This document shows, piece after piece, positions 24,596 through 45,346 of a DNA stretch of 64,000 bases. This DNA is from Candidatus Jettenia sp. AMX2. Its GTDB lineage: Bacteria > Planctomycetota > Brocadiia > Brocadiales > Brocadiaceae. The notes beneath the pieces are model-generated. The model saw nothing but the letters and a program-made list of their open reading frames with translations. It was not told the origin of the DNA and searched no databases. The DNA lies in the NCBI GenBank assembly GCA_030583665.1, contig CP129469.1, forward strand, positions 2,347,043 through 2,411,042, written 5' to 3'. Each line of letters starts with the position of its first letter. Positions within the stretch are counted from its first letter, which is position 1. The position numbers and the translations under genes were made by a program.

Positions 24596-24604
24596 AGGGA
24601 AGGA

Positions 24605-25274: not shown

Positions 25275-25287
25275 TGGTGTCTCCTTT

Positions 25288-25422
25288 GCCTAACATTAAG
25301 TATTTTATCAGTAGTTGAGTTGAATAATAATGCCGTACCGATTTTATCTGAATTTGCGAAAAAAGAAAGAAGCTTATCATTCCCTATCCGCAAGCTCAAT
25401 TACGGATAAAATACCGTTGAAC
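25288..25422 (-). other. attC site, 135 bp, copy 2 of a duplicated site
   Basis: GCCTAAC (25288-25294) and GTTGAAC (25416-25422) enclose the same arms as the site at 22368-22502. Identity with that copy continues to about 25475, past the hairpin CCCCATACTATGGGG. It closes a cassette whose gene body has been replaced by the IS3 element. Confidence 0.8.
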
Positions 25423-25553
25423 GAAGCCGCTATCCCCATACTATGGGGATTCAATCATACGGTTTCTGTGGAAAATACTGTTTCTCTCCTCACCATCCTG
25501 TCCGTCGGAATGTGTCAATGAAAATTAGACATTTTTTTAAAGAATTTAGACTC

Positions 25554-26549: not shown

Positions 26550-27034
26550 CTGTTTTCTCCTATCAGAGTGGAATGGATATTCAACATTTCTGAGATTTTT
26601 TTTTGAATCTCGATAATGGTTTCAGCCTGTTTGAGCCTTTGCTGAAGAGAATTAATTTCGCATTCAAGTTCTTTGATACGTCGTGCTGCCGGATCAGATT
26701 TTTTCTCCTTTGGTCCGCGTCGTTTTGGAGAAAGCGCCTCCAGGGTGCCACGTTCCAGTTGACGGCGCCAGGTAGTGAGATTAGACGAATAAAGACCTTC
26801 CCTTCTCAAGAGTGCTCCAATCTGCCCGAGATTTGTGCAGGCATCGGCCTCCCGAAGGATGCGAATCTTATACTGTGCAGTAAACTTACGTCTTGCTGCT
26901 TTTTCTGACACCTCTGGGTCGGGGACACAATTGCCAGCAGGAGCGTTGGTGGAACCTCCGTTCGCCCTACGGGCTCTCTCCGGTTCCACCAACGCTTGTA
27001 AAGTATTTTCTTTGCTTTTCTCATTATTTTTCAT
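26546..27034 (-). CDS. IS3-family OrfA
   Basis: A 162-residue DNA-binding subunit with a helix-turn-helix domain RKFTAQYKIRILREADACTN, LRREGLYSSNLTTWRRQLER and a C-terminal leucine-zipper-type coiled coil RIKELECEINSLQQRLKQAE that mediates assembly with OrfB. The N-terminal part is unusual: residues about 18-34 are encoded by a perfect 15-bp inverted repeat (26942-26956 and 26982-26996) that looks like an inserted hairpin. The helix-turn-helix and coiled coil are unaffected. Confidence 0.92.
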   Translation of the reverse strand: MKNNEKSKENTLQALVEPERARRANGGSTNAPAGNCVPDPEVSEKAARRKFTAQYKIRILREADACTNLGQIGALLRREGLYSSNLTTWRRQLERGTLEALSPKRRGPKEKKSDPAARRIKELECEINSLQQRLKQAETIIEIQKKISEMLNIHSTLIGENR

Positions 27035-28861: not shown

Positions 28862-29090
28862 CAACCCTGACAGGGTTCAGAACCCTGTCAGGGTTAACAC
28901 TCCACCTGCCAAAAATAAGCTGACAAAATGTTTACATATGTTATTGTCATTGCAAGCGACAGCGAAGCAATCTGAAGGCTTTATGGAATAAGAGATTGCG
29001 GAGCCTGCTGTGAGCGTTAGCGAAGCAGTCTCCGAGTTTGCTTCGTCGCTTTCGCTCCTCGCAATGACATTCGTTTTTGTATAGTTTTTT
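28862..29090. repeat. Repeat A block, copy near cobN
   Basis: An inverted pair AACCCTGACAGGGTT / AACCCTGTCAGGGTT (28862-28896) is followed by a repeat A unit with GTCATTGCAAGCGACAGC at the start and CTTTCGCTCCTCGCAATGAC at the end (about 28945-29072). The same layout occurs at 9411-9720 and 35999-36250. Confidence 0.8.
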
Positions 29091-29103: not shown

Positions 29104-32100
29104 CTATTGTCCAATCCTTCTCCTGAATCCCCACACAATAAGTCCTGCAAACGTCAGAAAACCAATAAGAAACAGATACGGTACCGGTGCAGGTGCATAC
29201 GATAGATCTGATATCATACTCACATCCTGCATTTCATAGCCTTCCACTGTTTTGTCAGTACCGTCGTCAGGAGCGGATGCAAATCGTTCATCTGCCGGTT
29301 GTTCTTTCTGCTCCGCTATGTTGCCCGGATGCTCCGGATTTCTCATTTTATCCAGCGCATCTCTAAATTCCTGCGCCTGACTTTTTAGAGCCGGCACCGA
29401 CGTTAAAACATCTGCTGTAAATTCCGCAAGCAACAGGTTATTGCACGTAAGGCTGCTGCATGCAAGGCCAACCTCTTTTACGCTCTCTGCATATTCCTTT
29501 GCCAGTGTCTCTACAACCTCCTTATCGGCTTTCCAATAATTTTTTCGAATAGTTTCAAGCATTCTCGCCACAATGGATTGATAAGCCCATGCATTCTTTG
29601 CCTGCCTGAACATCTCTTTTATATTCAAACCATTCCTGTCGAGAACATGCGTCTCATACATTTCATTCCACTTTGCAGCATCAACTGCCTCCGGCACCGT
29701 TACCTGCCATCCCCACAGGTGTTCTACTACGGTATCAATAAACCTTGCACCTGCATAACCTTCTTTCATCATCGCCTTTATCCATTCAGGGTTAAGATAC
29801 CTCGATCGCATCTCCCGGCCCATGAATTTTTCAAGGGTTTCCTGTCTTGGCATTGCAGGATTGGACATATTGGTAACGTAAACTTCCGGTGTCTTTCCGT
29901 CAACAGCACGAATTGCCATTGCAGTGCCGCCAAGGTATTGAAAAAAGTCGTCGTTATCAAGAGTCGCATAAAGATTGCCTGAACGGCTGTGAACTGCAAT
30001 CTTTGAACCTGAAAGCGCATTTTTAAAAAGTACGAGGCTAATATCCATCTGTTCCCTGTCTTCTATTCCCTCAACTTTGTCCCCCCAAAACCCCTGACCG
30101 TACAGATGGCTCATTCTCATAAAATAGACATCTGCAACCTGCTTTTCATCATCCCATGTATCTGACAGAGGTATCACCTTATCAAGATTTGTCCCGTAAG
30201 CTCCTGACGGTTGGGTAAATAATCTTACCGATGCCAGCCGTTCTGCCTTGTCTTCATCCATACCCTTTTCTGTGAGCATCTTCTTTGTTTTTATGACATT
30301 TGCCCTTAAAATATTATCCTCTTCATCCTGCTCCTTTGCCAGGCTCACCGCCTTATCGAGCAATGCCATAAGATCCGGGAATAAATCCCTGTAAAGACCT
30401 GAAGGCGCAACGGTTACATCAATCCTTGCCCTGCCGATTTCTTTTCCCGGTATAGCCTCTACCCCTATCACCCTTCCCCTTTCATCCCATCCGGGTTTTA
30501 TGCCCATGAGATACATAATCTGCGACTCCATAACTCCCTCATGCCTGATGGTCTCCACACCCCATACATTGAATGTGAGTTTATCCGGATATATTCCATG
30601 TCTCTGTTTATACCCCTCTATCAGTTCCTTTGCCAGCTTTACTCCACTTTCATACACCCCTTTCGACGGTATCCTCCTCGAATCAACTGAATAAAAATTC
30701 TTGCCTGTCGGAAGGGAATCAGGATTTCTTATCGGATCATTGCCCTGACCGGCGGGAATGTATCCGCCATCAAGGGCAGCAGCAAAGGAATCGAGCTCCC
30801 TCCGGGCTGACCGGATTATTCTCTGTTCGATCTCTGAAATTTCCTTTTTTCGTACATCCTCATTGTGAACGAAAGATGAATCAGGTATGTCGTTTTGAGA
30901 TTGAGCCGTCTCTTCGCTCGTTGCAATGACATTTTGCGGGGACTTATCAGTTCGTTCAAGAGACAGAATTGCCTCTGCCGTACTTTTTCTGTATTTTTCT
31001 TCAGGTAATTTTCCGAAGGTGTGAAGTCCGAATGGAGTCTGTTTTTCTGCTATTTCTTTTATATAATGCTCAAGTTCTTCAATCTCATCTTCCGTTTCAA
31101 TGTGTCTCAGCTTTAAATCGGTAAGAATGCCGGTCTTTCTTGCCTGTTTGTTTATCTCCGAAAGTTTTACTTCTGCAAGATACTGGCTTTTGTCCTTCGA
31201 CACATTGTAATCATTAATCAGGGCCCGTAGTTCCCTCAGCTCCTTATTCATTCCTGCCTTATCAAACGGTGGTGTCATGTGATCAATGATTACTGCCATA
31301 CCGCGCCTTTTCGCCTGAAGACCCTCGCCCACATTGTCGACAATATAGGGATAGATATTGGGTAAATCCTGAATCAGCGCTTCAGGAGGGTCATCCTCTG
31401 TAAAACCCGCCTCTTTTCCCGATAGCCATTCGTGTGTCCCATGTGTGCCGATGTGTGCAATAGCATCCGCCTGAAATTCATTTTTGAGCCATAGATAGAA
31501 AGCAACATACTGGTGATGTGGTGAAATGCTTACATCATGATACAGTTTTTCCGTATCCTGCTCCCAACCCCTTGATGGCTGAGGTGTAAAGAGAATATTG
31601 CCATATTTTACAACAGGAATGACTATATATTTGGTTCCGTTTGCTCCCTCCCATGTCATAATGCTGCCGTTTTCAGGTTCACCCCAATCTCTGACAACGG
31701 AGTTTTTAAAACCATCCGGCAATTCATCAAACCACTTTTTATAGATATCAATCGGAATCAGTACCGGCCTTCCACTTTTCACAAGCCTGTCAATCTCTCC
31801 GGATGCCCAATTGCCAATATTTCTCGCATAATTGTGGATATCGTCAAAAAGCCTTTCTTTCGCAAATTCTTTTTTAGTCCAATATTCCGTTTCTCCAACA
31901 TCATATCCTTCCTGCTTCAGCCTGTTCAGTATCTCCCACAGGCTTTCCGGCAGCACATTAAGATATGAAGCGCCTATATTCTGCTTGCCGGGCGGATAGT
32001 TGTAATAGATAATTGCAATGTTCTTATCTTTATTTTGCTTTTCCTGAAGATTGACCCATGCCTTTACCCTCTCAACAAGCCTGTTTATCCTTTCCGGCAC

Positions 32101-33213
32101 AGGCCTTTCCTCTATGTATTCAATGCCTGAATCTTTATCTGTCACCTTTTCCTTTGATGCAATAACAGTCGGTTGAATTATTCCACCAAGTTCCGGAAGG
32201 GTCAGTTGCCAGGTTCTCTCAAATATATCAAGGCCAACCCGGGATTTTCTCCATTCATCCTCTGATTGACCGTAAAGGGTGATGGCATTAATTACCGGTA
32301 CATTAAGCCTGTTAAACAGAGGTATGGCAATCTGCGGGTTTAAACCGACCTTCAATGACATGCCAACCACTGCCCTTACCCTGCTGTTTCCTTTTTCATC
32401 AAAGAAAAACCTTTCTACGGACGTCTCTGCCGGAGAACCATATACCGGCAGGACATTAAAGCCATTCTGTTCAAACTTTTTGATAACCGCATCAAGGCTA
32501 TTGGTCTGGCCTGATTCAAAGGTGTTTTTATAAAAGACAATACCTACCCATGGCCTGTTTTCTCTGTAGGGTGCATAGGCGCTTTTATATTCTTCGAAAT
32601 TATCAAAAATCCTTTTCGCACTGCGCCCGTATATACCGAATTCAGGGAGGCTGACTACTTCACCATAAGAAACATCAAGTCCAAAATCCTTTTTTAATGC
32701 GTAAAGAACCATATTTTTAAAGTTCTCTGTGCCTCCATGCCGATAATACTCTATGATATTTTCATCAACCAATATCCCCATCTCCCTGTGATCATCATCG
32801 TATGTCCCGCCGAATGCATAGACTATTCCGCCATTTTTGATAACTTCTTCTATTTCCGGATGCACCGTATCAATCAACTGCCTCCCCATTATCTGAATTA
32901 TTACAAGCTTTGATTCCTTGAGATGTGTAAGGTTTCTGTTTCGTATATCTTTTGACGGATAAACTTTAAATAAGATATCCTTTGCCGCAGGCAGTTGATT
33001 CCTTACTGTCTTTATCGCTTCCACAGCGGTCTTTGAATGTGTGTCGCCAGGAACAATACTCACTTTTAATTGCTCAGCATACACAGCATCCCTGAATAAA
33101 AAACAAAAAAGAAAAAGGCATGAGAATGAGAGAATAAGAAAACATCTGAAAAAATACTTCCCCTCTTCCCACTCTCCCGGCTTCTTAATCTCTTTCAGTC
33201 TATTCCGGCACAT
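29104..33213 (-). CDS. Exported, membrane-anchored CobN/HmuS-like chelatase
   Basis: A 1,369-residue CobN/Mg-chelatase-H family protein from ATG 33213 (GGGAGGG seven bases upstream). The family core is clear: HIGTHGTHEWLSGKEAGFT, then LPNIYPYIVDNVGEGLQAKR and the C-terminal NIKEMFRQAKNAWAYQSIVA region. Unlike cytosolic CobN it has an N-terminal signal peptide (hydrophobic 22-40, likely cleavage after VYA46) and a C-terminal transmembrane helix followed by RRRIGQ, so the bulk should face the periplasm. Neighbouring ExbB, DUF2149 and DUF2162 genes match the Bacteroidetes hmuSTUV arrangement, in which the CobN-like HmuS handles haem metal. No CobS/CobT ATPases are present. Insertion or removal of metal in a corrinoid is inference. 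Residues near 770-790 derive from a repeat. Confidence 0.8.
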   Translation of the reverse strand: MCRNRLKEIKKPGEWEEGKYFFRCFLILSFSCLFLFCFLFRDAVYAEQLKVSIVPGDTHSKTAVEAIKTVRNQLPAAKDILFKVYPSKDIRNRNLTHLKESKLVIIQIMGRQLIDTVHPEIEEVIKNGGIVYAFGGTYDDDHREMGILVDENIIEYYRHGGTENFKNMVLYALKKDFGLDVSYGEVVSLPEFGIYGRSAKRIFDNFEEYKSAYAPYRENRPWVGIVFYKNTFESGQTNSLDAVIKKFEQNGFNVLPVYGSPAETSVERFFFDEKGNSRVRAVVGMSLKVGLNPQIAIPLFNRLNVPVINAITLYGQSEDEWRKSRVGLDIFERTWQLTLPELGGIIQPTVIASKEKVTDKDSGIEYIEERPVPERINRLVERVKAWVNLQEKQNKDKNIAIIYYNYPPGKQNIGASYLNVLPESLWEILNRLKQEGYDVGETEYWTKKEFAKERLFDDIHNYARNIGNWASGEIDRLVKSGRPVLIPIDIYKKWFDELPDGFKNSVVRDWGEPENGSIMTWEGANGTKYIVIPVVKYGNILFTPQPSRGWEQDTEKLYHDVSISPHHQYVAFYLWLKNEFQADAIAHIGTHGTHEWLSGKEAGFTEDDPPEALIQDLPNIYPYIVDNVGEGLQAKRRGMAVIIDHMTPPFDKAGMNKELRELRALINDYNVSKDKSQYLAEVKLSEINKQARKTGILTDLKLRHIETEDEIEELEHYIKEIAEKQTPFGLHTFGKLPEEKYRKSTAEAILSLERTDKSPQNVIATSEETAQSQNDIPDSSFVHNEDVRKKEISEIEQRIIRSARRELDSFAAALDGGYIPAGQGNDPIRNPDSLPTGKNFYSVDSRRIPSKGVYESGVKLAKELIEGYKQRHGIYPDKLTFNVWGVETIRHEGVMESQIMYLMGIKPGWDERGRVIGVEAIPGKEIGRARIDVTVAPSGLYRDLFPDLMALLDKAVSLAKEQDEEDNILRANVIKTKKMLTEKGMDEDKAERLASVRLFTQPSGAYGTNLDKVIPLSDTWDDEKQVADVYFMRMSHLYGQGFWGDKVEGIEDREQMDISLVLFKNALSGSKIAVHSRSGNLYATLDNDDFFQYLGGTAMAIRAVDGKTPEVYVTNMSNPAMPRQETLEKFMGREMRSRYLNPEWIKAMMKEGYAGARFIDTVVEHLWGWQVTVPEAVDAAKWNEMYETHVLDRNGLNIKEMFRQAKNAWAYQSIVARMLETIRKNYWKADKEVVETLAKEYAESVKEVGLACSSLTCNNLLLAEFTADVLTSVPALKSQAQEFRDALDKMRNPEHPGNIAEQKEQPADERFASAPDDGTDKTVEGYEMQDVSMISDLSYAPAPVPYLFLIGFLTFAGLIVWGFRRRIGQ

Positions 33214-33538
33214 AAATAACCCTCCCGTCTTTAAGCTGATATGCAATTCCAAGCCTCTGCCCATCGCCGCTCACCTTTCTATCAGTAACTTTTTTCGCTT
33301 TTATCTCTTTGCCTTTCTTTGTGATTATCTCTATCTTCCCATCAGCAGTCTTCTTTGTAATAGTCAGCTCCGATTTCGGATCAAGCAGGTCAAGCATGTT
33401 GTAAGCTATAAAAAGGGCTATCATCATGCTTACGATAAAAACAATGCTCGCATCAAAGAGGTTTGCAACGCCTGCTATCGGGTCTTCAATAGGCTGTTCG
33501 TATTTTTCAAACCTTCTCCGCCTTTTCATAAATCTCAT
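33200..33538 (-). CDS. DUF2149 protein (HmuV-like)
   Basis: A 112-residue protein from ATG 33538, well supported by AAGGAGGAGAATT upstream. A basic N-terminus is followed by the family core PIAGVANLFDASIVFIVSMM, a transmembrane helix, and a small periplasmic domain ending VIYVPE. DUF2149 proteins accompany ExbB-like and CobN-like genes in methanogens and in hmu operons, and their layout resembles ExbD: a short cytoplasmic tail, one helix with an aspartate (FDAS) in or near it, and an external domain. It overlaps both its neighbours, the ExbB-like frame upstream and cobN downstream, which indicates tight co-expression. Confidence 0.85.
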   Translation of the reverse strand: MRFMKRRRRFEKYEQPIEDPIAGVANLFDASIVFIVSMMIALFIAYNMLDLLDPKSELTITKKTADGKIEIITKKGKEIKAKKVTDRKVSGDGQRLGIAYQLKDGRVIYVPE

Positions 33539-34183
33539 AATTCTCCTCCTTTTCCATCCTTTCATGACAAACCAGAGGCGAGACGATTTTCTTATTTTGG
33601 GATTGCATCTTCGCTTCAGTCCCTGCAAAAACATATTCACCTGAACCCCGGAGCGCCAGTTCTGTCATATATTCCATCTCCCTCATATCCGCCCTTACCC
33701 ATTTTTCCTTCACCATTGACATCAGATATGCAACCATACCGCATGCAAGACCAACGACGGTTGTGGTAAATGCCGTAACCTGCTGCCTGCCATCTTCGGC
33801 ATATCACCCTGAGCAAGGGCTGAAAGCGCTATGCCCATAGGAATTAATGTTCCCATTAAGCCAAGGGTAGGGCCAACACGAATTGCAAATCTGATTTTAT
33901 CAAGGGATTTAATCAGCTCAAGCTCTGCGCTCTGCAGCAATCTTTCAAGGTTTACATCGAAAACATCTGATGCGGCTGATTGTTCAACACTTGAGGCTAT
34001 TGTGCCTTTATATTTCGTTACCTGATAAGAAATCCCACGCCTTCTTTCCAGATACTCATTCAGGAAACCACCAAAGAATATGACCACCCAGAATACAAGC
34101 AAAACCAGCCCCGCCACTACCGGGAAAAAAATGGCGGATGATATTACATAAATAAACGTTTGAAGTCCTGCAAAAATATTCAT
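33507..34183 (-). pseudogene. ExbB/TolQ/MotA-type proton channel, one-base frameshift
   Basis: The first 130 codons from 34183 give a TolQ/ExbB-type protein: a transmembrane helix (about 14-36), then the family block FAIRVGPTLGLMGTLIPMGI. After MPKMAG the frame goes off into an unrelated tail ending at 33722. In the next frame the expected continuation VTAFTTTVVGLACGMVAYLM runs on to 33507, giving about 225 residues if one base is added near 33785-33790. This may be a real mutation, a sequencing error in GGCAGCAGG, or recoding. The channel would energise the CobN-like/DUF2149 assembly with the proton gradient. All neighbouring genes are intact. Confidence 0.8.
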
Positions 34184-35028
34184 TTTTTCACCTCCGATTC
34201 TTTTGTGCCATCCTTTGTCATTGCAAATGTTGGCGAAGCAATCTTATTCCTGATTGCAACATTGCTTCCCTCCTCACAATGACATGATACAATGCGTTTT
34301 TTATTTGCAAAGTAACCGGCAACCAATGCCGCCAGAAGCAGCGCCAGTACACCTACCTTGTTATCGATTTCAATCTTGCCGCCTTCTGTCAGAAAAGATT
34401 GATAAACACCTTTCGCATCCTCAATCTTTGCCGGAAGAAACAAAGAAGCAATAAAATAAAATCCCACAACGATCATGCTCAATCCTAACCCTATTCCGGA
34501 TATCTGCTTCTGCTTTAGCCTCGCCATGAGAACAACAGTAAGGGTCAAGGTCCCAAATACTGCGCCTAATCCCAATCCAACAAGAATTGACGGCAGCCTG
34601 ACTACATTCACCATTGCCCATGTGGAACAAATCATGACAACAAGGCAGATTGGGCAAGGAGTCATCAACAACAGTGAATAGGGTGAGAGTTTTTGAGGCC
34701 GAGATGTTGAGATATTCTTATCTTCACAACTTCTTATCCACATACTTTTTGTCTTCTGTCTTCTGAGCAAAGTGATTCCCCATGCAATCATTCCCATTGC
34801 CATAATTACGTGCAAAAAAGGACCTTTTTTCAGCGCAGGCTCAAGTATCTTCATCAGTTGTTCCAGGAGTATTACAATCAGCACAAATAAAATAAGATAC
34901 GTGGAAAGAGCAGATGCTATCCCTTTCCAGCGTATTCCGCTAAAACTGATGCCAATACCTGCTTTTATAGCGAATATGCCCAGGCTGACGAATATGCCTC
35001 CGTACCATAAGATGATATTGAGATCCAT
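34180..35028 (-). CDS. DUF2162 membrane protein (HmuT-position)
   Basis: A 282-residue polytopic protein with about seven hydrophobic segments. The segment LLLMTPCPICLVVMICSTWA (a CPxC motif inside a membrane helix) followed by LGAVFGTLTLTVVLMA is typical of DUF2162, a predicted transporter found beside CobN-like genes in methanogens and in hmu-type clusters. The CPIC pair could bind metal or thiol. ATG 35028 was chosen; a GTG at 35037 overlaps the cbiZ stop. The last 35 or so residues, including VSCHCEEGSNVAIRNKIASP, are encoded by a complete repeat A element inserted in frame at 34215-34285, so the natural C-terminus was probably shorter. Confidence 0.75.
   Translation of the reverse strand: MDLNIILWYGGIFVSLGIFAIKAGIGISFSGIRWKGIASALSTYLILFVLIVILLEQLMKILEPALKKGPFLHVIMAMGMIAWGITLLRRQKTKSMWIRSCEDKNISTSRPQKLSPYSLLLMTPCPICLVVMICSTWAMVNVVRLPSILVGLGLGAVFGTLTLTVVLMARLKQKQISGIGLGLSMIVVGFYFIASLFLPAKIEDAKGVYQSFLTEGGKIEIDNKVGVLALLLAALVAGYFANKKRIVSCHCEEGSNVAIRNKIASPTFAMTKDGTKESEVKK
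34215..34285. repeat. Repeat A unit inside DUF2162 coding sequence
   Basis: Ends GTCATTGCAAATG and CCTCACAATGACAT are inverted relative to each other, and GAAGCAATCTTATT lies inside, as in the intergenic repeat A copies. It is read through in frame and supplies the end of the DUF2162 protein. Confidence 0.8.
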
Positions 35029-35033
35029 ATCTG

Positions 35034-35921
35034 TCACTCGGCCCCGCTGACGACATCGATATCCGGCTTCTCGAATCCATTCTGTTTTTCCAGCGCCTTC
35101 ATCGTGGCTTCATAAACTGCCTTTCCGATTAACTCGCCTATTTTGCTGTGTCCTCCTGTGTAGGTAACCTTTGGTCCGCCAGTGCCTGAAACAACAGTGA
35201 CAGTATCCGTACCGGTGCCTGTCGCCTGTGCATTTTTCGTATAGCTGCTTGGAACCTTTAAATCCTCAAATGCAGCCGTCTTTGCCTCTGTTGCAGTCAC
35301 AATCGCCCTTGCCATTGCCCCGTCCGTTAACCTCGTGTTTGTCAGTATGAGAATATTTACCGTTCCCTTTGACTCTTCACCTTCGATGTATCTGCCTTCA
35401 TCAAGTCCGGTTCTCAGGGCGTTTGTCCTTGCCCCTGCCGTCACCAAGGCAGTAATTGTGAAAGGTTCGTGTATTTTGGTCTTGATCGCAATATTATCCA
35501 TATCCACCGCAGTTGCCATTTTTGCAATATCCTCACTTCTTATGCCGAACTCACCGGCAATCCGTTTTTTGATAATTCTGCTATAAACCTTCCCGCCAAC
35601 CTCTTCCTTTGTCTTCATATCATGACAAACCTTTTTCCATAATTCAGGATGGGCAGAGTGATTCACCACCGACATTGCATCAACAAAACCATCATTAGTA
35701 GATAATACCCTTCTTCTCTCCGGGAATTTAACAATCAGACTTTTTTCCCAAAAACCGTCTCTTTCAGATTTGATTACGTAAGCGATTGCATTAATACCCT
35801 GAGGCAGGTTAATATCGGCTCCCATAACGATAGACGGCAGTAATACGGTTAAAGCAATCAGCCATGCCAGAAATATTTTTACTCTTTTAGAATTTAAAAT
35901 GGTCATATCCTTTCCCCCCAT
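35034..35921 (-). CDS. cbiZ: CbiZ-like adenosylcobinamide amidohydrolase with signal peptide
   Basis: A 295-residue protein of the CbiZ family, which cuts the aminopropanol arm from (adenosyl)cobinamide so that corrinoids can be re-routed to cobyric acid. Family segments include AGARTNALRTGLDEGRYIEG, ILILTNTRLTDGAMARAIVT and the late YTGGHSKIGELIGKAVYEA. The N-terminus KIFLAWLIALTVLLPSIVMG with A-D after it is a signal peptide, so this copy should act outside the cytoplasm, unlike known CbiZ enzymes. ATG 35921 has GGAAGGA five bases upstream; ATG 35906 is also possible. Its stop overlaps the DUF2162 start. The product cobyric acid would need uptake before use. Confidence 0.85.
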   Translation of the reverse strand: MGGKDMTILNSKRVKIFLAWLIALTVLLPSIVMGADINLPQGINAIAYVIKSERDGFWEKSLIVKFPERRRVLSTNDGFVDAMSVVNHSAHPELWKKVCHDMKTKEEVGGKVYSRIIKKRIAGEFGIRSEDIAKMATAVDMDNIAIKTKIHEPFTITALVTAGARTNALRTGLDEGRYIEGEESKGTVNILILTNTRLTDGAMARAIVTATEAKTAAFEDLKVPSSYTKNAQATGTGTDTVTVVSGTGGPKVTYTGGHSKIGELIGKAVYEATMKALEKQNGFEKPDIDVVSGAE

Positions 35922-35998
35922 AAATGTCCTTCCCCAATCGGGTATTCCTGAACTATAGTACTCTACAGATGAAACCGAACACCTCCACAAGACTCACT

Positions 35999-36290
35999 CC
36001 TCTGTCATTGCGAGGGCCTTTTCCGAAGCAATCCCCTTCTGCCGCAACCGTCATTGCGAAGGCGAGGCCTGAAGCAATCCCTCCCCATGACCATGAGATT
36101 GCGGAGCCTGCTGCGAGCGTTAGCAAAGCAGTCTCCGAGTTTGCTTCGTCGCTTTCGCTCCTCGCAACCGCTTCGATCTTCGCAATGACAGACGAAAAAT
36201 CTCAGCGACCTTACAATGACAGGCGAGGAATCTTCGCTCCTCGCAATGACAAAAACGGTCTTATTTGGTGGGTAATGCCCACCCTACATG
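35999..36290. repeat. Repeat A block upstream of cbiZ
   Basis: Several repeat A pieces in tandem (TGTCATTGCGAGGGCC, CGTCATTGCGAAGGCGAGG, CTTCGCAATGACAGACG) end in a short palindrome TGGGTAATGCCCACC. This last part is the inverted counterpart of the sequence near 9378-9410. It separates the receptor gene from cbiZ. Confidence 0.8.
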
Positions 36291-36304
36291 AATTCAGACA
36301 AATC

Positions 36305-38281
36305 TCAAAATCTGAACTCGAATCCCATGTATGCCGTAAAACCAAGCGAGCTGTAACCCGTCACCTCTTCATAGTCGTAATCAAAAAGATTCTCAAACCT
36401 GGCATACGCAGTCATTGATTTTGTAATGTCATAGCTGGATACCACGTTGGTTGTCCAATAATTATCCATCTCTGTACCATCGCTATCTATCCTGTCCCTG
36501 ACCATAATTCCGGTCATAGTAATATTAAGCTTTTCTGCTGGTTGTGTTGTAATCCCAAGCGTTGCCCTGTTTCTCGGTCTTCTTGGCAGTTGTTGATCCT
36601 TTTCCCTGTCTCTTGTTTCTGTATAGGTATAAGTGCCCATAAAAGAAAGCCCGGGGAGCGGTCTGTAAATTAATATAGTCTCAATCCCTTCCGCCTTTGC
36701 CTTATTGACATTTTCTGCCAAAAAACTACCGTCAGCTTGTCTTGCAGAGGCAATCAGATTGGTAAAATCGTTTTGAAAATAGGTAACATCCATAATAAGC
36801 CGGTCTTTAAGGATTTTTTTCTCAATACCGAAATCCCACCCCCTACTCTTCTCCGAATTAAGATTTGGGTTGCCAAAGAAGGGGAAAAAGAGTTCGTTCA
36901 GACTCGGGGCACGAAAACCCGTTCCCCATGATCCGTGGAACCGGGTATCGATCTCATCTATGTTGTATGAGGCCGTTGTTCTGTAACTAAGATTATTTCC
37001 GAACGTACTATATTCGTCGTAACGCAAACCGGCTGTCCAGTTGAGCGAATCAAACAGCTTTATCTGATTTTGCAGGAAAAAAGAACTGCTCCGGAAGGTC
37101 TTGTCAAATTTGCCAACATTCTCACCCTCCTGTTTTTCGTATTCATACCCTACCGTTACGGTGTTGATATCGAAAAGAGAAAAATCAGACTGATGCTCGA
37201 ACCTCCAGACCCTTGTAAGAATACGATATACTGCTGATGCATCCGTCGGATGAAAACCCTTCAGTTCTGTATCATTAACAGAAACCAATACCGATGGTGT
37301 CCAGAAATCAAAAAAGGTTTTATGTATTCTTGTTGAAAAAAGAACCTCATCCGTTGTTTGTCGCCGGTCAGGATCATCTACGGGGCCAACTCTAAACTGA
37401 AATTTATCGAGTTCAAGGTCAGCATGTGACCCCCTCACAACCGTATCAATCCTTCCCTCTTCCAGAAAATTCCAACCAAGCCGTGCCGAGCCGGTAAAAT
37501 TTTTGTAACCATCCCTTTCATCACCGCTGCTTGCATGAGATATGCCGCCAGTTTTAAAATATGAGCCTCCCACAGAATAATCAAATCTCTCTTCTCCGCC
37601 TGAAACGTTAAGAGTCCCCCTGTAGGTATCACGCATCCCGTACTCTGTTCCTAGGGAAACTTTGGTCTTTTCCCTGCCCCTTTTCGTAAAGATATTAACA
37701 ACGCCACCCATAGCTTCTGAACCGTACAAGGTACTTTGGGGGCCGCGCAGGATCTCAATCCGCTCAATGTTATCCGTGGTAAGGTCTGCAAAATTAAATG
37801 CGCCTGTTGTGGTGCTGTTCATTTGGACGCCATCTATAAAGACGAGCGTTTGGGCAGAAGATGCCCCTCTGATAAACATACTGGTAGTTCCGCCAATCAT
37901 ACCTGTTCTGGCAACTTCAAGTCCGGGCGCCTGCCGTAACACATCAAGCAGTAGTGGCGCCCTGCTGTTTCTGATATCCTTCTCTGTAATAACAGTTACC
38001 GAACTACCGGTATCTTTTAATAATTGAGGTGTTCGTGTGGCAGATACAACGATCTCCCGAAGCTCTACCGTATTTACCGGTTCCTTGGCTGGAGTGATAA
38101 CAATCCTGCCGTTATCACTACCACGATTCCAACCCGTTTCTTTCTCTTTGTTCTCTCTTCCGTTTTCATTCCGGGATTCATCTTCATCTTTATGACTTGT
38201 CTGCACCAATGGTTCTGCATAACAGTACAAAGTCATTACGGGCAAAACCAGTAGAGATAAAAATACATATATCAACTTCAT
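36305..38281 (-). CDS. btuB: TonB-dependent outer-membrane receptor, BtuB-like
   Basis: A 658-residue outer-membrane receptor: signal peptide (about 1-22, cut after CYA), TonB-box-like segment ELREIVVSATRTP, plug domain with ITEKDIRNSRAPLLLDVLRQ, IRGASSAQTLVFIDGVQ and IERIEILRGPQSTLYGSEAM, then a beta-barrel ending in the terminal aromatic GFEFRF. The size and plug fit BtuB-type vitamin B12 receptors, and the cobalamin riboswitch immediately upstream makes a corrinoid the likely ligand. It heads the cluster that continues with cbiZ, DUF2162, ExbB-like, DUF2149 and cobN-like genes. A TonB gene is not in the window. Confidence 0.92.
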   Translation of the reverse strand: MKLIYVFLSLLVLPVMTLYCYAEPLVQTSHKDEDESRNENGRENKEKETGWNRGSDNGRIVITPAKEPVNTVELREIVVSATRTPQLLKDTGSSVTVITEKDIRNSRAPLLLDVLRQAPGLEVARTGMIGGTTSMFIRGASSAQTLVFIDGVQMNSTTTGAFNFADLTTDNIERIEILRGPQSTLYGSEAMGGVVNIFTKRGREKTKVSLGTEYGMRDTYRGTLNVSGGEERFDYSVGGSYFKTGGISHASSGDERDGYKNFTGSARLGWNFLEEGRIDTVVRGSHADLELDKFQFRVGPVDDPDRRQTTDEVLFSTRIHKTFFDFWTPSVLVSVNDTELKGFHPTDASAVYRILTRVWRFEHQSDFSLFDINTVTVGYEYEKQEGENVGKFDKTFRSSSFFLQNQIKLFDSLNWTAGLRYDEYSTFGNNLSYRTTASYNIDEIDTRFHGSWGTGFRAPSLNELFFPFFGNPNLNSEKSRGWDFGIEKKILKDRLIMDVTYFQNDFTNLIASARQADGSFLAENVNKAKAEGIETILIYRPLPGLSFMGTYTYTETRDREKDQQLPRRPRNRATLGITTQPAEKLNITMTGIMVRDRIDSDGTEMDNYWTTNVVSSYDITKSMTAYARFENLFDYDYEEVTGYSSLGFTAYMGFEFRF

Positions 38282-38317
38282 CTTTTTCCCCTCGGAAATA
38301 TGAATTCATAAAATAAT

Positions 38318-38478
38318 GTCCGAATAGGTCTCCTGGCTCCCGGGTCTACCTACTTTCTGCGCCTTCCCATTCCATGACAAATAATATTTCGGAACAGTGG
38401 CCTAGTGCAGATTTCGTCACCGGTTACAGTTGCGGGGCAGCTCCGTTTCTACGGATTCCCTTGCATTCGAACTAAAAT
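38318..38478 (-). promoter_or_regulatory. Cobalamin riboswitch upstream of btuB
   Basis: The minus strand carries the conserved B12 aptamer blocks in order: AAGGGAATCCG, GAGCTGCCCCGCAACTGTAA, GCCACTG, GGGAAGGCGCAG and finally GAGCCAGGAGACCTATTC. Only about 37 bases separate it from the btuB start, so control is probably by hiding the ribosome site GAGGGG rather than by a terminator. Confidence 0.95.
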
Positions 38479-38626
38479 AAAAAGCTGGGATTTTCTTTTA
38501 GTCCCGATATACGGGACACCTGTATACGTAATTTATCTACCTAAAATTTTACTTTACATACTATGCTCCTTTCAGAATCCGGATAATTACGGTTATTTTT
38601 GGCAGGCACTGCCTGCCCTACTTGGT

Positions 38627-40195
38627 TCATAATTTAAGTATATGATAAATCATATTCATATTCATATTCATGCGAACGGTACCGGATAACTCCTGATATT
38701 TCTGTTCTTTTCTATTTTTAGAAACTACGTCGCCTGCAGACGGTGTTAATCCTTTTCTTACTTTTAAGTGATTCAGAAGTTTCGACCGGAACTCATCGTT
38801 ATCAAAAATACCATGGATATAGGTACCCATAACGGTACCGGAAGCAGATATACATCCATCCGTAATATCCGTAATCTTTCCCGCACGCTCAATAATCCTT
38901 GCAAAGGGTTTCGCGGAATCATACCCATTATATGTTGTTTCTCCCATGTGGATCTCATAACCAATAAGTTCTTCGTTCACGGGAAACGGGCAACTCTGTT
39001 CGAACAAACGGGCCTTCACCTGATAGGTCTGCTTTTCCCTGGCAAAGGTGGTAACAATATTTAACAGACCCATGCCCCTGATACTGGTCTTTGATGATTC
39101 GACATGATGCGGGTCATTAATCTGCCTTCCCAGCATCTGATATCCGCCACAAACACCAAATATTGTACTACCGTCCTTTGACAACTTTATAATTTCTTCG
39201 GAAATACCCCTCTCCCTCAAAAACAGTAAATCACCAATGGTATTTTTTGTACCCGGAATAATAAGTAAGTCTGGCCTGCTGATATCATTTACATTATCTG
39301 CAAATCTCAACCTTACATCCTTTTCATGGGAAAATATCGTAAAATCAGTAAAATTTGATATGTGGGGTAATTTGATTACTACAATGTCTATGAATCCGTT
39401 TCTGGTATTATCAGTATTGCCATCAAATAATTTTCCCTTGTGAGAAAATCTGCTGTCAGCATCTCCATACTGAAGAGACACAGAATCCTCATCGTCTATG
39501 TCAAGATTGTGGATATATGGGACTACACCAACTACCGGCTTGCTTATCCGATCCTCAAGCATATCCAGCCCGGGCTTTAATATACTCTTATCTCCACGGA
39601 ATTTATTGAAAATAATACCTTTCACAAGATTTCTCTCGTTTGCGGTTAACAACTCCAACGTACCGACAATCCATGCAAAGGAACCGCCGCGGTCTATATC
39701 CGTCACCAAGAGCACAGGCGCTGATACCATCTGTGCCATCCCCATATTGACGATATCATCATCCTTCAGGTTTATCTCGGCAGGACTACCTGCCCCTTCA
39801 ATAATAATAATATCAAATTGATTTCTCAGGGTATCGTAAGCATCCTTTATAACCGAAACAAACTCATTTTTCCTTTGATAATATTCTCTGGCGGTCATAT
39901 TCCCTACCGGTTTGCCCATAATAATAACCTGCGAACCGCAATCTCCCGTCGGTTTAAGAAGTACAGGGTTCATCTCCACACGCGGGACAACACCGGCAGC
40001 CTCTGCCTGCGCTACCTGTGCCCGTCCCATTTCTTTTCCATCTTCCGTTACAAATGAATTCAAGGCCATGTTTTGCGCTTTAAAGGGTGCAACGCGATAA
40101 CCGTCCTGTTTCAAAATGCGGCACAGGGCACACACGATGATGCTCTTGCCTACATGCGATCCTGTACCTTGTATCATAAGGTTTCTGTTTGTCAT
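38627..40195 (-). CDS. cobQ: Cobyric acid synthase
   Basis: A 522-residue CobQ/CbiP amidotransferase that converts adenosylcobyrinic acid a,c-diamide to cobyric acid, using glutamine and ATP for four amidations. The N-terminal synthetase domain has MIQGTGSHVGKSIIVCALCR; the triad-type glutaminase domain has IFGVCGGYQMLGRQI with the nucleophile cysteine, YEIHMGETTY, and the C-terminal GTYIHGIFDN histidine. The start is ATG 40195 (a GTG at 40201 is in frame). It is separated by repeats from cobD, but both serve the late part of cobalamin synthesis. Exported CbiZ upstream would also yield cobyric acid, so the two routes converge. Confidence 0.96.
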   Translation of the reverse strand: MTNRNLMIQGTGSHVGKSIIVCALCRILKQDGYRVAPFKAQNMALNSFVTEDGKEMGRAQVAQAEAAGVVPRVEMNPVLLKPTGDCGSQVIIMGKPVGNMTAREYYQRKNEFVSVIKDAYDTLRNQFDIIIIEGAGSPAEINLKDDDIVNMGMAQMVSAPVLLVTDIDRGGSFAWIVGTLELLTANERNLVKGIIFNKFRGDKSILKPGLDMLEDRISKPVVGVVPYIHNLDIDDEDSVSLQYGDADSRFSHKGKLFDGNTDNTRNGFIDIVVIKLPHISNFTDFTIFSHEKDVRLRFADNVNDISRPDLLIIPGTKNTIGDLLFLRERGISEEIIKLSKDGSTIFGVCGGYQMLGRQINDPHHVESSKTSIRGMGLLNIVTTFAREKQTYQVKARLFEQSCPFPVNEELIGYEIHMGETTYNGYDSAKPFARIIERAGKITDITDGCISASGTVMGTYIHGIFDNDEFRSKLLNHLKVRKGLTPSAGDVVSKNRKEQKYQELSGTVRMNMNMNMIYHILKL

Positions 40196-40222
40196 AATCA
40201 CTCATTCCATAAACTTCTTCGC

Positions 40223-40665: not shown

Positions 40666-41829
40666 TTAATCCTTAAACCTGAAACCTTTGCGTTCTTTGC
40701 GACTTTGCAGTAAACCATTACGTATCTGGCAGTTTTCACCACCCGGAAATTGATTCATTACATTACTCAGTTGATCAATAAGCTTCCTATTCTCCTCACG
40801 TGTCCTTACTGCCACCCGGAAATACGTATCATTAAGTCCTATAAAATTTGAACAATCACGAATGGCAATACCTGAAGTTAACAGTCTTTCATATAAAAAA
40901 GAAGAGGTCATGCCTGTAACGGCTATCTTAGCAAGGATGTAATTAGCTGCAGGCAGATAGGGAAAGAGCCCACGGATATGAGATAATTCGTTAAACAAGT
41001 ATGCACGTTCCTTTAGCATAAATTCCCTGCTTTGAGAAATAAACACTTTATCTTTCAAAGCAGCTACTGCAGCGCTTTGGGCTAAGGCATTCACAGACCA
41101 TGGTTCCTTATACTGCATTATCTTTCCTGCCAAATCCTTGCTGGTAACCATATACCCGACCCTTAAACCTGGAAAACCATAAAACTTTGTAAGAGATCTG
41201 ACCACAATCACGTTGCATACAATCCCTGCATCTTTTATAACACTATACTTACCGGGATATTCAACAAAATCCATAAACGCCTCATCAATAACAAATGTTA
41301 TGCCGGGGTGTTGTCTTGCCATATCCAGGATACTATGCCTTTCTACTAATTGTCCTGTAGGGTTGTTTGGATTACACAGGAAGGCAATCCCTGATTTTCC
41401 ATCAGAAAAGTATTCTTTGCTATAGACAAATCGAAACTGATTCTCTTCCTTCAGCACGTTATGAATCACCTCCGCGTGACTGCACTTCAGTGCCTCGGCA
41501 AACTCACTAAAGGTAGGGTTAAAAACAACTCCTTTCTCAGGTCTTAATGCACGGGGAATCAAATAAAACAGTTCTGTAGAACCATTTCCTATGATAATTT
41601 CGTCGCATGACCGCCCTATTTCCTGTGCAATATGTTGTCTCAAATGAGAACAATCAATATCGGGATAATGCAATATGTCATCAAGCTTTTCCTGTATAAC
41701 CCTTCGAACATTTTCAGGATATCCAAGAGGATTAATACTTGCACTAAAATCCAGGATATCATCTTTCTTCCTCCCTGTTTTGATGTCTGAGGGTAAGTGT
41801 CTTATATTTCCACCATGACCTTTAAACAT
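40666..41829 (-). CDS. cobD: Threonine-phosphate decarboxylase
   Basis: A 387-residue PLP enzyme of the HisC-like aminotransferase fold that makes (R)-1-amino-2-propanol phosphate, the linker of the nucleotide loop of cobalamin. Family markers are ILDFSASINPLGYPENV at the N-terminus, EIIIGNGSTELFYLIPRA, FLCNPNNPTGQ and the PLP-lysine segment VRSLTKFYGFPGLRVGYM. HisC is similar, but the opening motif and the position next to cbiO point to CobD (also named CobC in aerobic pathways). It overlaps the end of cbiO by eight bases and is therefore the last gene of the cobalt-transport operon. Confidence 0.93.
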   Translation of the reverse strand: MFKGHGGNIRHLPSDIKTGRKKDDILDFSASINPLGYPENVRRVIQEKLDDILHYPDIDCSHLRQHIAQEIGRSCDEIIIGNGSTELFYLIPRALRPEKGVVFNPTFSEFAEALKCSHAEVIHNVLKEENQFRFVYSKEYFSDGKSGIAFLCNPNNPTGQLVERHSILDMARQHPGITFVIDEAFMDFVEYPGKYSVIKDAGIVCNVIVVRSLTKFYGFPGLRVGYMVTSKDLAGKIMQYKEPWSVNALAQSAAVAALKDKVFISQSREFMLKERAYLFNELSHIRGLFPYLPAANYILAKIAVTGMTSSFLYERLLTSGIAIRDCSNFIGLNDTYFRVAVRTREENRKLIDQLSNVMNQFPGGENCQIRNGLLQSRKERKGFRFKD

Positions 41830-42661
41830 AATTCTTTAACTCACGAACCAGAAATTTCCTCGCTTCTCCAATAGTAAGAGGTAAGGCATCCATTGGGATA
41901 TTATCCTTATCCCTCAGTATTTGCATTAACTGAGCAACCTGTGGAAGTTCTAAACTGGCATCCATTATTTCAGCAACATTTGAAAATACATATTCAGGTG
42001 TACCAACCCTAAGTATACTGCCATGATACATAATTGCCAGCCGGTCCATATAAACAGGCACCAGATCAACGGTATTTGTTGCCATAACAACCGTAATACC
42101 ATGGGTATTATTCAACTCTTTTAACAACACCATAAGAGAAGTTACTCCGGCGGGGTCGAGTCCGCAGGTAGGTTCGTCAAGAACAAGTATCTCCGGTCTC
42201 ATTGCAAGTACTCCGGCAATACAAATTCGCTTCTTCTGGCCGAAACTCAGGGCATCAACGGCTTTCTTTGCATACGGTGTCATTCCAACCATCGACAATG
42301 CCTCCTCCACCCTGCGGGTTAGCTCAATCTCTGAAAGGCCCAGGTTCATTGGTCCAAAGGCCACATCATCCCACACCGATGGGGCAAATAACTGATCGTT
42401 TGGATCCTGGAATACCATACCAACCCTTTGGAACACATCCTTTGACGGGTAGTGTGACAAAGGTTTCTCTGCTAACAATATTTCTCCATCCGCAGGCTTT
42501 AACAGACCATTGAGATGCTTCAGCAGTGTCGTCTTGCCAGACCCGTTTGGACCGAGTATAGCCAGTAATTCCCCTTTTACAATATCCATACAGATGCCAC
42601 GTAATGCATATGTCCCGTCATGATATCGATATCGGATATTTTTGATTCTCAGTATTACCAT
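41822..42661 (-). CDS. cbiO: Cobalt ECF transporter ATPase CbiO
   Basis: A 279-residue ABC ATPase from ATG 42661; an upstream in-frame start at 42724 lies inside cbiQ and adds a non-family tail. Walker A GPNGSGKTT is at 37-45, the Q-loop FQDPNDQ at 84-90, the signature LSFGQKK at 138-144 and Walker B ILVLDEPTCGLDP at 158-170. The H-loop is altered: the usual THD reads TNT (residues 195-197), so the switch histidine is replaced by asparagine N196. It energises CbiMNQ for Co2+ import. Start and stop overlap both neighbours. Confidence 0.95.
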   Translation of the reverse strand: MVILRIKNIRYRYHDGTYALRGICMDIVKGELLAILGPNGSGKTTLLKHLNGLLKPADGEILLAEKPLSHYPSKDVFQRVGMVFQDPNDQLFAPSVWDDVAFGPMNLGLSEIELTRRVEEALSMVGMTPYAKKAVDALSFGQKKRICIAGVLAMRPEILVLDEPTCGLDPAGVTSLMVLLKELNNTHGITVVMATNTVDLVPVYMDRLAIMYHGSILRVGTPEYVFSNVAEIMDASLELPQVAQLMQILRDKDNIPMDALPLTIGEARKFLVRELKNYV

Positions 42662-43443
42662 ATTCTGATATTTCCTGTATAAACAAAAAGAGGTATGATG
42701 AAAACTAATCCTGTGATAAGACAATATTCGCGCCTTCCCCAGGAAGGCAAGTGCATTGTCAGTATGTTGCCACCCTCATAACCTCTCACACGCATTGCCT
42801 CATGAATTCTTTCTGCCCTTTCAAAGGCACGAATAAGAAGCATTCCACCCAGCATTCCGTACGATCTTATTGTTTTTTGCCATGAGGTATGGCCAAGACG
42901 TGATTTCTGGGCAACCCTTATTGTCGATACTTCATCTAATAAAAGGAAAATATAGCGGTAGATAAACGCCAGCAATTCAGTAATGGTGTCTGGTATGTGA
43001 AACCACTTTAATCCTGCGCACAACTGGCTTATTGTCATGGTAAAGGAAAGGAGAATTACCAGTGAAATGCCGCCGAGCACCTTACTAAAGATATGGAGTC
43101 CGTTCCGTAATCCTTCTTCTTTCAAAACGAAGTTGTATCCTACAACCGAAAAGGAGATCCATTCATCATTGCCTTCATGCAAACCTTTTATGAGGAGTAG
43201 TAATGTTGCAAATAGTATTGGTATGACCATTCTCCGGAGTATCAAAACAACGGGAATCCTTATGGAAAGGAGTAAGAAGAGAGACACAAAAAGGAAAAAT
43301 AACGGAATACCCCTATTCTTCGCTAATAAATTTATTAAAAGTAATGAAGCGATGTAGAGCAGCTTTATCCGGACATCAATCCTTGTCAGCCAATTATCCC
43401 TGCGGGCATAGGTATCAGAAAATGTCTGGTGTAAAAAACCCAT
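42655..43443 (-). CDS. cbiQ: Cobalt ECF transporter T component CbiQ
   Basis: A 262-residue membrane protein with about five or six helices and the EcfT family motifs: WLTRIDVRIKLLYIASLLLI near the N-terminus, and the two coupling segments MLGGMLLIRAFERAERIHEA and MRVRGYEGG, whose Ala-Arg-Gly pattern docks on the ATPase grooves. It links CbiM with CbiO. It begins directly after cbiN (one-base spacing) and its stop overlaps the cbiO start. Confidence 0.95.
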   Translation of the reverse strand: MGFLHQTFSDTYARRDNWLTRIDVRIKLLYIASLLLINLLAKNRGIPLFFLFVSLFLLLSIRIPVVLILRRMVIPILFATLLLLIKGLHEGNDEWISFSVVGYNFVLKEEGLRNGLHIFSKVLGGISLVILLSFTMTISQLCAGLKWFHIPDTITELLAFIYRYIFLLLDEVSTIRVAQKSRLGHTSWQKTIRSYGMLGGMLLIRAFERAERIHEAMRVRGYEGGNILTMHLPSWGRREYCLITGLVFIIPLFVYTGNIRIW

Positions 43444-43794
43444 TTAATCCTCTTTTTTGATCAACTCGCCAGGGTTATTTTCACAAAAAAACTTACGTGC
43501 ATAAAAGCCTATTACTAAACCGCCCATTACGCCTGCAAGGGTAAACACAAAAAGCAGTAAATCACCCTGGTCTGTATTAATATAGGGGTCACGGGGTGGA
43601 CGTCCATATTTTGCGGCATATTTACCTACAATACTCACATCAGTACCTGTCCAAGGTACTTTATCTTCCTGCGCAGCAGGAATGCCGGCCTTCTCCAAAT
43701 GTTCTTCTGCAAACACTCCCAGGGGAAAAAATATCATGAACAGAGAAATGATTGAAAGAAATCTGGCACTAGGCCTGAACATCTTTTTCAGCAT
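43444..43794 (-). CDS. cbiN: CbiN-like small cobalt transporter subunit
   Basis: A 116-residue protein with an N-terminal signal or transmembrane segment (about 11-28), an external loop with AAKYGRPPRDPYINTDQGDL, and a C-terminal helix LLFVFTLAGVMGGLVIGFYA. CbiN normally has this two-helix form with a short loop that helps metal insertion into CbiM. The loop here is longer than usual, and the protein is recognised mainly by its place between cbiM and cbiQ and by the final helix. It overlaps the end of cbiM by 26 bases. Confidence 0.75.
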   Translation of the reverse strand: MLKKMFRPSARFLSIISLFMIFFPLGVFAEEHLEKAGIPAAQEDKVPWTGTDVSIVGKYAAKYGRPPRDPYINTDQGDLLLFVFTLAGVMGGLVIGFYARKFFCENNPGELIKKED

Positions 43795-44464
43795 CTTTCA
43801 TAACCCCCAAACTAAACAAGATATCTGGTCTCCGTCTATAAATAAAGACCAGAATGGACCCCACGACAATACCTTCAACGATACAGAGAATCCCTTGGGA
43901 TGTTACGATAAATGCCCCAAAAATCTCTGCGGTTGCTCTCAGGAACGAATCGCTTTTATTAATCACGAGCAGTCCCAAAGCAACAGATGTACCCAAATAC
44001 GTAAACAGATCAGATATCGCTCCGGCAAGAAACCCACACCAAAATAAACTCAATTTACATCGCTGAGCTGTTTTAAATACGAAGTAACCGGAAAAAGAAC
44101 CAAGAATACCCATAGAAAATATATTTCCACCAAGGGTAGTTAATCCGCCGTGGGCAAGAAACAGGGCCTGAATAAGTAAGGCAATGGCTGCAATAACCAC
44201 ACTCACGAATGGCCCCAGCAGCACCGCACTCAGGCCTGTACCACACGGATGCGATGTTGCCATTCCCTGCAGGGCAATTACCGGAATGGGAAAACACGAA
44301 AATACAAATACAGCCGCTCCCAGCATGCCTGCCAAGGGTATATAGCCAGGGATGGTTTTCTTCTTCTGTTTGATATGGTATATCCCGATTCCCACAAATG
44401 GTAAGGATACCCCAAACCAAGTAAAAACCCACTGGGGAGGTAAAATCCCTTCTGTTATGTGCAT
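43769..44464 (-). CDS. cbiM: Cobalt-binding S component CbiM
   Basis: A 231-residue membrane protein beginning MHITEGILPPQW. The N-terminal Met-His pair is the metal ligand of CbiM/NikM proteins, and the GMATSHPCGTGLSAVLLGPF region carries the further conserved histidine. About seven helices are visible. It binds Co2+ outside and works with CbiN, CbiQ and CbiO. It is the first gene of the operon and stands behind a cobalamin riboswitch and a terminator, so cobalt import is repressed when cobalamin is ample. Nickel specificity is less likely given the riboswitch and cobD. Confidence 0.95.
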   Translation of the reverse strand: MHITEGILPPQWVFTWFGVSLPFVGIGIYHIKQKKKTIPGYIPLAGMLGAAVFVFSCFPIPVIALQGMATSHPCGTGLSAVLLGPFVSVVIAAIALLIQALFLAHGGLTTLGGNIFSMGILGSFSGYFVFKTAQRCKLSLFWCGFLAGAISDLFTYLGTSVALGLLVINKSDSFLRATAEIFGAFIVTSQGILCIVEGIVVGSILVFIYRRRPDILFSLGVMKDAEKDVQA

Positions 44465-44550: not shown

Positions 44551-44721
44551 ATACTTATCAGTACCAGTAGACTTATAACTACTGCAGAAAATAACCACGC
44601 ATGATGCAGACGGAAAGAAAATATGGATTATTCCACGTTACGTTTGTTATTTCCAAAATCTGCAGTTATTTTACTGTTATCCCTTCACCTTCTTTACCAT
44701 CGAAGATACTGTGAAGCAATT

Positions 44722-44866
44722 ACAGGCAGGTCTTCTGGCTCCTGGATCATCCTACCCATCACCCTTCCCGCCATATTACCATATGGCAGTGGCTTGTGAT
44801 ATTCGTCCCCAGTTACAGCGGCGGGTCCGCTCCTCATCTTGCCTTTTACCTATAAATACACAAAGC
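44722..44866 (-). promoter_or_regulatory. Cobalamin riboswitch upstream of cbiMNQO-cobD
   Basis: The minus strand shows the B12 aptamer blocks AAAGGCAAGATGAGG, CGCCGCTGTAACTGGGG, AAGCCACTGCCATATGG, GGGAAGGGTGATGGG and GAGCCAGAAGACCTGCC. It controls the cobalt-transport operon through the hairpin at 44515-44550. Confidence 0.93.
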
Positions 44867-45346
44867 AAAATATGGATTCCCTTTTATTTTCCGTTGCCAC
44901 AGGAATGGCAATAAATCATTTTCAACATAATTTTATTTATTATGCCATCAAATTTATCATTTGCTATAGCAACAGAAAAACCTGTAATTGTATTTTTAAA
45001 TAATAGAAAAAGAACAGCACCATAGAAAGGTAGCGCGATTGTACATGAGGCATTTACATTTGTCAAACAAAATAATTTTTGCCTCAACCGGATTATTCTT
45101 GCTATTTCACAGCTTGAATTCACTAAGTATTTAATAACTTGTTTATTTTTTCCTTTGATTCTCCTCTCCAGGAATTATAAAATACTGCCTGTATCAACCC
45201 ATAATCCCCCGATTACCGGTTGCTCTGTAAAACCCAATCATCGTATACAGATATAATGTAATAATTTGTTTTCATGTTCAGGTGTCTGCCTCTAACGGGA
45301 AGAGGTAGCGATTCCTTAAACACTATAGATTGAAGGAAACGTATCT
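44867..45346. other. Divergent intergenic region
   Basis: The 480-bp stretch between the cbiM riboswitch (leftward) and mltA (rightward) must hold both promoters. No coding frame is supported, and I see no structured RNA apart from the riboswitch. Confidence 0.5.

Follow-up and report, generated by a model that had tools for sequence, protein, structure and literature searches.

What is a CobN-like chelatase doing with an export signal and a membrane anchor, behind a cobalamin riboswitch? The question is raised by a 64,000-nucleotide (nt) stretch of the genome of Candidatus Jettenia sp. AMX2 (contig CP129469.1, positions 2,347,043 to 2,411,042), here called the window, in which genes for a BtuB-like receptor, CbiZ, DUF2162, ExbB-like, DUF2149 and CobN-like proteins lie side by side. 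The locus probably encodes a periplasmic module of the HmuSTUV type that processes corrinoids under the control of a B12 riboswitch, whether its last step is removal of cobalt or hand-over of the ring. By analogy with the handling of haem in gut Bacteroides, it points to corrinoid processing outside the cytoplasm. This reading is built on B12 control, export signals, the membrane anchor, the linkage of the ExbB, DUF2149 and DUF2162 genes and a genome in which no AAA+ chelatase partner was found, all of them read from the sequence itself. The features of the module are listed below; L-numbers denote related loci in other genomes.

38306..38485, minus strand: cobalamin riboswitch heading BtuB (Rfam RF00174, 86.6 bits, E 5.5e-20)
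36305..38281, minus strand: BtuB-like TonB-dependent receptor (Pfam match; family comparison)
35034..35906, minus strand: CbiZ, adenosylcobinamide amidohydrolase family (PF01955, E 1.3e-51)
35820..35906, minus strand: putative signal peptide of CbiZ (hydropathy and alignment with L007 and L013)
34180..35037, minus strand: DUF2162, about seven transmembrane helices with an invariant PCPxC motif, in the HmuT slot (PF09930, E 5.3e-53; alignment)
33722..34183, minus strand: ExbB-like, N part before a frameshift (PF01618, MotA_ExbB, E 3.7e-5; three-frame translation)
33507 (about)..33805, minus strand: ExbB-like, C part in another frame (three-frame translation and orthologue comparison)
33200..33538, minus strand: DUF2149, one transmembrane helix with an invariant Asp and a small periplasmic beta domain, in the HmuV slot (PF09919, E 1.4e-31; alignment)
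29104..33213, minus strand: exported, anchored CobN-like protein of 1369 amino acids (PF02514, 1078 bits, E 0)
33076..33213, minus strand: putative signal peptide of the CobN-like protein (N-terminal hydropathy and conservation)
29134..29190, minus strand: C-terminal membrane anchor of the CobN-like protein (19-residue hydrophobic helix, then RRR)

Along the minus strand the order is riboswitch, BtuB, CbiZ, DUF2162, ExbB-like, DUF2149 and CobN-like, and the Rfam and Pfam matches bear out the gene order that a preliminary description of the locus had given. Gene starts were reset by orthologue alignment and Shine-Dalgarno sites (CbiZ at 35906, DUF2149 at 33538 and CobN at 33213). Overlaps of 4 nt join CbiZ to DUF2162 and DUF2162 to the ExbB-like gene, and one of 14 nt joins DUF2149 to CobN, which argues for tight coupling within each of these two groups; BtuB and CbiZ are separated by 398 nt. 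The best NCBIfam match of the receptor is the TonB-B12 model, with 317 bits against a cut-off of 599.7.

Control by B12 is a property of the relatives as well. Related loci, with CobN-like proteins mostly 58-68% identical, were found in Nitrospirota, Desulfobacterota, Planctomycetota and others, and keep DUF2162, ExbB, DUF2149 and CobN contiguous. Counting only B12-clade loci with enough upstream DNA (n=21, window included), a cobalamin riboswitch stands ahead of the leading receptor in 19 (the window, L005, L007, L011, L012, L013, L015, L019, L024, L055, L056, L057, L058, L059, L062, L063, L067, L068 and L078) and is missing at L016 and L065. None was found at nine loci of other exported clades, HmuS-type ones among them, so that the haem control which the preliminary description had considered for relatives is not what the B12 clade displays. 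Upstream of BtuB at L055, L056, L057, L059, L062, L063 and L067 the riboswitches come as a pair, mostly in tandem, compared to one in the window. The contig of L016 is labelled Marinifilum (Bacteroidota), but its CobN groups inside Nitrospirota, and it is probably a mislabelled metagenome-assembled genome. At L019 a CbiK-type cobalt chelatase gene directly follows the CobN-like gene (L019:14042-14827).

The site of action is indicated by the ends of the proteins. The signal-peptide assignments for CbiZ and the CobN-like protein rest on hydropathy, AXA-type sites and conservation; N-terminal hydropathy by itself overlaps slightly with an internal stretch in BchH. The N-terminus of the CobN-like protein is signal-peptide-like (..FLILSFSCLFLFCFLFRDAVYA, followed by EQ), and each of 36 exported CobN-like proteins examined combines a hydrophobic N-terminus with a C-terminal helix, the latter lacking in four of four canonical CobN/BchH proteins. 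Export and C-terminal anchoring, as first proposed, are thus conserved across phyla, and the orthologues checked have kept their signal peptides. The CbiZ domain is full-length (profile positions 1-191 of 191), and its signal-peptide-like N-terminus reads ..FLAWLIALTVLLPSIVMG, followed by AD. Exported orthologues align at L007 and L013, and at L024, L068 and L069, inside loci of the module, a BtuF-like periplasmic binding domain with a signal-peptide-like start is fused to CbiZ. These conserved signal peptides and exported fusions uphold the claim of an exported CbiZ and, as far as sequence goes, do not match the cytoplasmic action expected of this enzyme. A plasmid search for more CbiZ proteins returned one record only, and no description of CbiZ export or of a B12 version of Hmu was found in the open-licence literature, subscription papers lying outside the search.

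How close is this cluster to the Hmu haem system of Bacteroidota (PMC12583661, PMC13227078)? Both place a receptor, an exported, doubly anchored CobN-like protein, a membrane protein, ExbB and DUF2149 in one operon; here a B12 riboswitch replaces the haem context, and BtuB and CbiZ stand in place of HmuY. DUF2162 occupies the position of HmuT, but the HmuT proteins tested gave no Pfam match. The nearest solved structure to the CobN-like protein is the dechelatase HmuS (9d26), and the conserved His-538 motif of HmuS, HFG(T/A)HG, is kept as HIGTHGTHEW. Of the site-1 haem ligands Met-79 and His-254, the Met is kept and the His-Gly-Arg is missing. His-1209 and Glu-1212 (LSLDHxxEFMGG) are also missing, the CobN-like protein reading LDNDDFFQYLGG with D and Q as the aligned residues, and the place of the Met-rich insertion is taken by 52 residues, none of them Met, and by about 25 in orthologues. 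His-254, His-1209, Glu-1212 and the Met-rich insert are the defining features of HmuS, and most other homologues of HmuS were left unassigned (PMC12583661). In the tree, HmuS lies apart from the B12 clade. Judged by these residues and the tree, the CobN-like protein may work like the Hmu module, yet it is not HmuS.

Nor does it resemble the cobalt chelatase CobNST in more than part. Homology to CobN extends across the full family profile and includes the DxDD..Q motif, the second motif LDNDDFFQY resembling DSDDYYQ of CobN; NCBIfam names the protein CobN, yet under every cut-off. Canonical CobN/BchH separate from all exported forms with full support, and here the protein is exported and anchored rather than soluble and cytoplasmic. 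In the genome searched (a single 3.46-Mb contig, completeness 99.99%), the CobN family has a single gene, no CobT was found, and the best ChlD match reached 44 bits versus a cut-off of 499.6, CobS and ChlI not having been searched separately. The lack of an adjoining AAA+ partner noted earlier therefore extends to CobT and ChlD genome-wide, and no separate cobST set turned up to pair with this CobN. CbiX, of early cobalt insertion, and CbiC are both present, and together with the single CobN and the missing CobT and ChlD they imply that cobalt insertion for B12 should use the early pathway. The CbiX and CbiC matches are adjacent, on one strand and in equal 353-amino-acid open frames (G000:C1:1613628-1614593), and probably represent one fused protein.

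Compared to uptake by BtuB-BtuCDF with CbiZ remodelling, the locus shares BtuB and CbiZ, and a BtuF-like domain is fused to CbiZ in the three relatives named above. Here, however, CbiZ is exported, the cluster has no BtuCDF genes, and no BtuC-type permease was found in the genome: the lone FecCD match falls under the cut-off and is ZnuB-like (the carriers ECF CbrT, BtuM and SbmA-like were not searched). True FecCD occurs in only 2 of the 33 genomes of the window's family, an absence that is not general outside it.

Two further clusters are instructive. The CobN-exbB-exbD-tonB cluster of Trichlorobacter (Geobacter) lovleyi pSZ77 was noted in 2012, without CobS/T, as having a possible role in corrinoid transport (PMC3403914, in the part consulted). 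It holds an orthologous receptor, DUF2162, ExbB, DUF2149, a CobN of 59% identity and cobalamin riboswitches; no CbiZ is annotated there, and export, the Hmu parallel and CbiZ go unmentioned in that part of PMC3403914. PA1922-PA1925 of Pseudomonas aeruginosa (PMC4542158, PMC9431628) likewise comprises a receptor, CobN-like, ExbB/ExbD-type and DUF2149 proteins, but is Zur-regulated and responds to zinc starvation, unlike the B12 control seen here.

The energy for such a machine had been tentatively ascribed to the ExbB-like channel. Its gene is indeed present, but a one-base frameshift (33722-33805) breaks what is a single open frame in orthologues; the break may have arisen in assembly or be a recent mutation, and a genuine frameshift may have abolished the proton-channel step in this strain. 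The layout of DUF2149 is ExbD-like, with an invariant Asp within or beside the transmembrane helix, while hhalign gave no profile match between DUF2149 and ExbD (0.2% probability, with shallow profiles) and the predicted DUF2149 model, at 58 pLDDT, was too weak for use. For DUF2162, nothing significant emerged from a structural search. At L056, L061 and L078 a canonical ExbB-ExbD-TonB set shares the locus with ExbB-DUF2149, which suggests that the latter pair is not merely a TonB energiser.

It is conceivable from these parts how the module would operate. At low adenosylcobalamin, BtuB would carry corrinoids into the periplasm, where CbiZ would remove the nucleotide loop and leave a cobyric-acid-like ring, similar to the normal product of CobN. 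At the inner membrane the CobN-like protein would then bind the trimmed ring, with proton-motive energy drawn from the ExbB-DUF2149 pair. Finally, either cobalt would be removed, and the adjacent CbiMNQO and/or DUF2162 would import the Co2+ for B12 synthesis de novo, or the intact ring would be handed across the inner membrane. The preliminary description had envisaged an extracytoplasmic machine acting before uptake; the signal peptides and BtuF-CbiZ fusions agree with the extracytoplasmic site, but the action should be placed in the periplasm, after uptake through the outer membrane. The neighbouring genes are these, with cobD also adjoining the module:

38627..40201, minus strand: cobyric acid synthase CobQ, upstream neighbour (NF001989, 640 bits, above cut-off)
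41822..44464, minus strand: cobalt importer genes cbiO, cbiQ, cbiN (by position) and cbiM (Pfam/NCBIfam matches)
44708..44927, minus strand: second cobalamin riboswitch, ahead of cbiM (RF00174, 76.6 bits)

CobQ is a neighbour at L055, L059 and L063 as well. Between the two endings, cobalt removal is tentatively and slightly favoured, on the grounds of HmuS homology, cbiMNQO next door, de novo corrin synthesis in carriers, and related modules in Zur-regulated (PMC4542158, PMC9431628) and hydrogenase contexts. Hand-over of the intact ring, a close second though itself rather doubtful, draws support from CbiZ, from the BtuF fusions and from the absence of the HmuS catalytic pair. Still less likely is the wider proposal of a proton-driven periplasmic de-cobaltation of trimmed corrinoids within a general class of exported CobN/ExbB/DUF2149 systems for haem iron, zinc, nickel and cobalt. 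Several observations weigh against the corrinoid-processing reading. Many related loci lack CbiZ, the ExbB frame is broken at this one, and FecCD permeases are found in 10 of 17 module-bearing genomes outside the family. CbiC was found in 31 of 36 carrier genomes, but none of the 23 family genomes of good quality lacks it, whether they carry the module or not, so that within the family its association with the module is uninformative and the gene is not module-specific. The second active-site His of HmuS and its Glu partner give way to a DNDDFFQ motif, and HmuS chemistry is therefore not simply transferable. To our knowledge, no enzyme takes cobalt out of a corrin.

Other explanations fit parts of the same evidence. 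ExbB-DUF2149 might only energise outer-membrane transport by BtuB, leaving the CobN-like protein as a passive periplasmic corrinoid binder, as would accord with the EMBO J 2025 model in which HmuU/V energise HmuR and with TonB genes in several clusters (L005, L007, L024). This is improbable, since L056, L061 and L078 have their separate canonical set, DUF2149 and ExbD lack a profile match (shallow as the profiles are), and Methanosarcina acetivorans, which has no outer membrane, has the DUF2149, ExbB and CobN families in its genome, whether or not adjacent. The cargo could instead be a non-corrin cobalt chelate, a metallophore imported by the receptor and relieved of its metal by the CobN-like protein. 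The Zur-regulated (PMC4542158, PMC9431628) and hydrogenase contexts suggest metals as a common theme, and B12-producing carriers need cobalt; yet the export of CbiZ and of BtuF-CbiZ fusions indicates a corrinoid cargo, as does TonB-B12 as the top-scoring, if sub-threshold, receptor model, and the idea is distinctly unlikely.

Two readings were rejected. A haem iron-acquisition system merely lying near B12 genes would account for the hmuSTUV-like four-gene set and for HmuS as nearest solved relative, but is very hard to reconcile with the cobalamin riboswitches, CbiZ, BtuB, the missing HmuS-defining residues and the separate clade. Least credible of all is that the protein is a normal cytoplasmic CobN of the aerobic B12 pathway whose start was mis-called, with the same error in CbiZ: annotation transfers and the family match (E 0) speak for it, with NCBIfam CobN below every cut-off, whereas the missing CobT and ChlD, the presence of CbiX, the conservation across phyla of both anchor and export signal and the fully supported split in the tree speak against it.

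If a periplasmic corrinoid-processing module is indeed at work, cobamide remodelling and chelatase chemistry would be located outside the cytoplasm. This would suggest how a BtuB receptor can be of use to a cell that has no BtuC-type permease, and would give a function to CobN homologues annotated as B12-synthesis enzymes yet lacking CobST. With two versions of the module that differ in their ligands to compare, the role of HmuTUV in the haem system would become open to test.

Where did the module come from? Members of the window's family share BtuB, at about 66-75% identity, and riboswitches, frequently with cobQ next to them. Behind this BtuB they carry a diverged set, often with a DUF4430 protein, CobN at 40-42%, ExbB and DUF2149. 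Among 33 family genomes the Nitrospirota-like module type occurs in this one only, and the tree places the CobN-like protein beside Nitrospirota sequences (97% SH-aLRT). The block is flanked by a dispersed repeat:

36095..36167, plus strand: 73-nt dispersed repeat, one flank of the acquired block (97% identical to 28992-29064)
28992..29064, plus strand: 73-nt dispersed repeat, other flank of the acquired block (repeat comparison)

A third copy lies at 9495-9568, and no remnants of the family-type module were found beside BtuB. The module was probably gained horizontally, replacing a diverged module behind the resident BtuB, and such a replacement behind a resident receptor is in itself an argument that the two cooperate. 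Downstream of the module there are several transposase genes (window 20350-27034). Small exported proteins are encoded between BtuB and CobN in the family (L058:4511-4897, L059:16098-16559, L060:14923-15315 and L062:4186-4602), and the two that were checked match DUF4430, which we take to be transcobalamin-like; proteins of this type are possible periplasmic corrinoid binders.

On a Runella plasmid (L081:896-8930), a receptor, a NicO/DsbD-like membrane protein (weak matches), ExbB, DUF2149 and an exported CobN-like protein lie in a hydrogenase maturation cluster, which suggests a nickel version of the module. Elsewhere in the window, an HAO-like multihaem gene (53233-54915) is split into two adjacent same-frame open reading frames by an in-frame stop; together with the placement of the family, this gene would fit an anammox planctomycete. 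A c-di-GMP-I riboswitch lies on the minus strand at 3236-3327.

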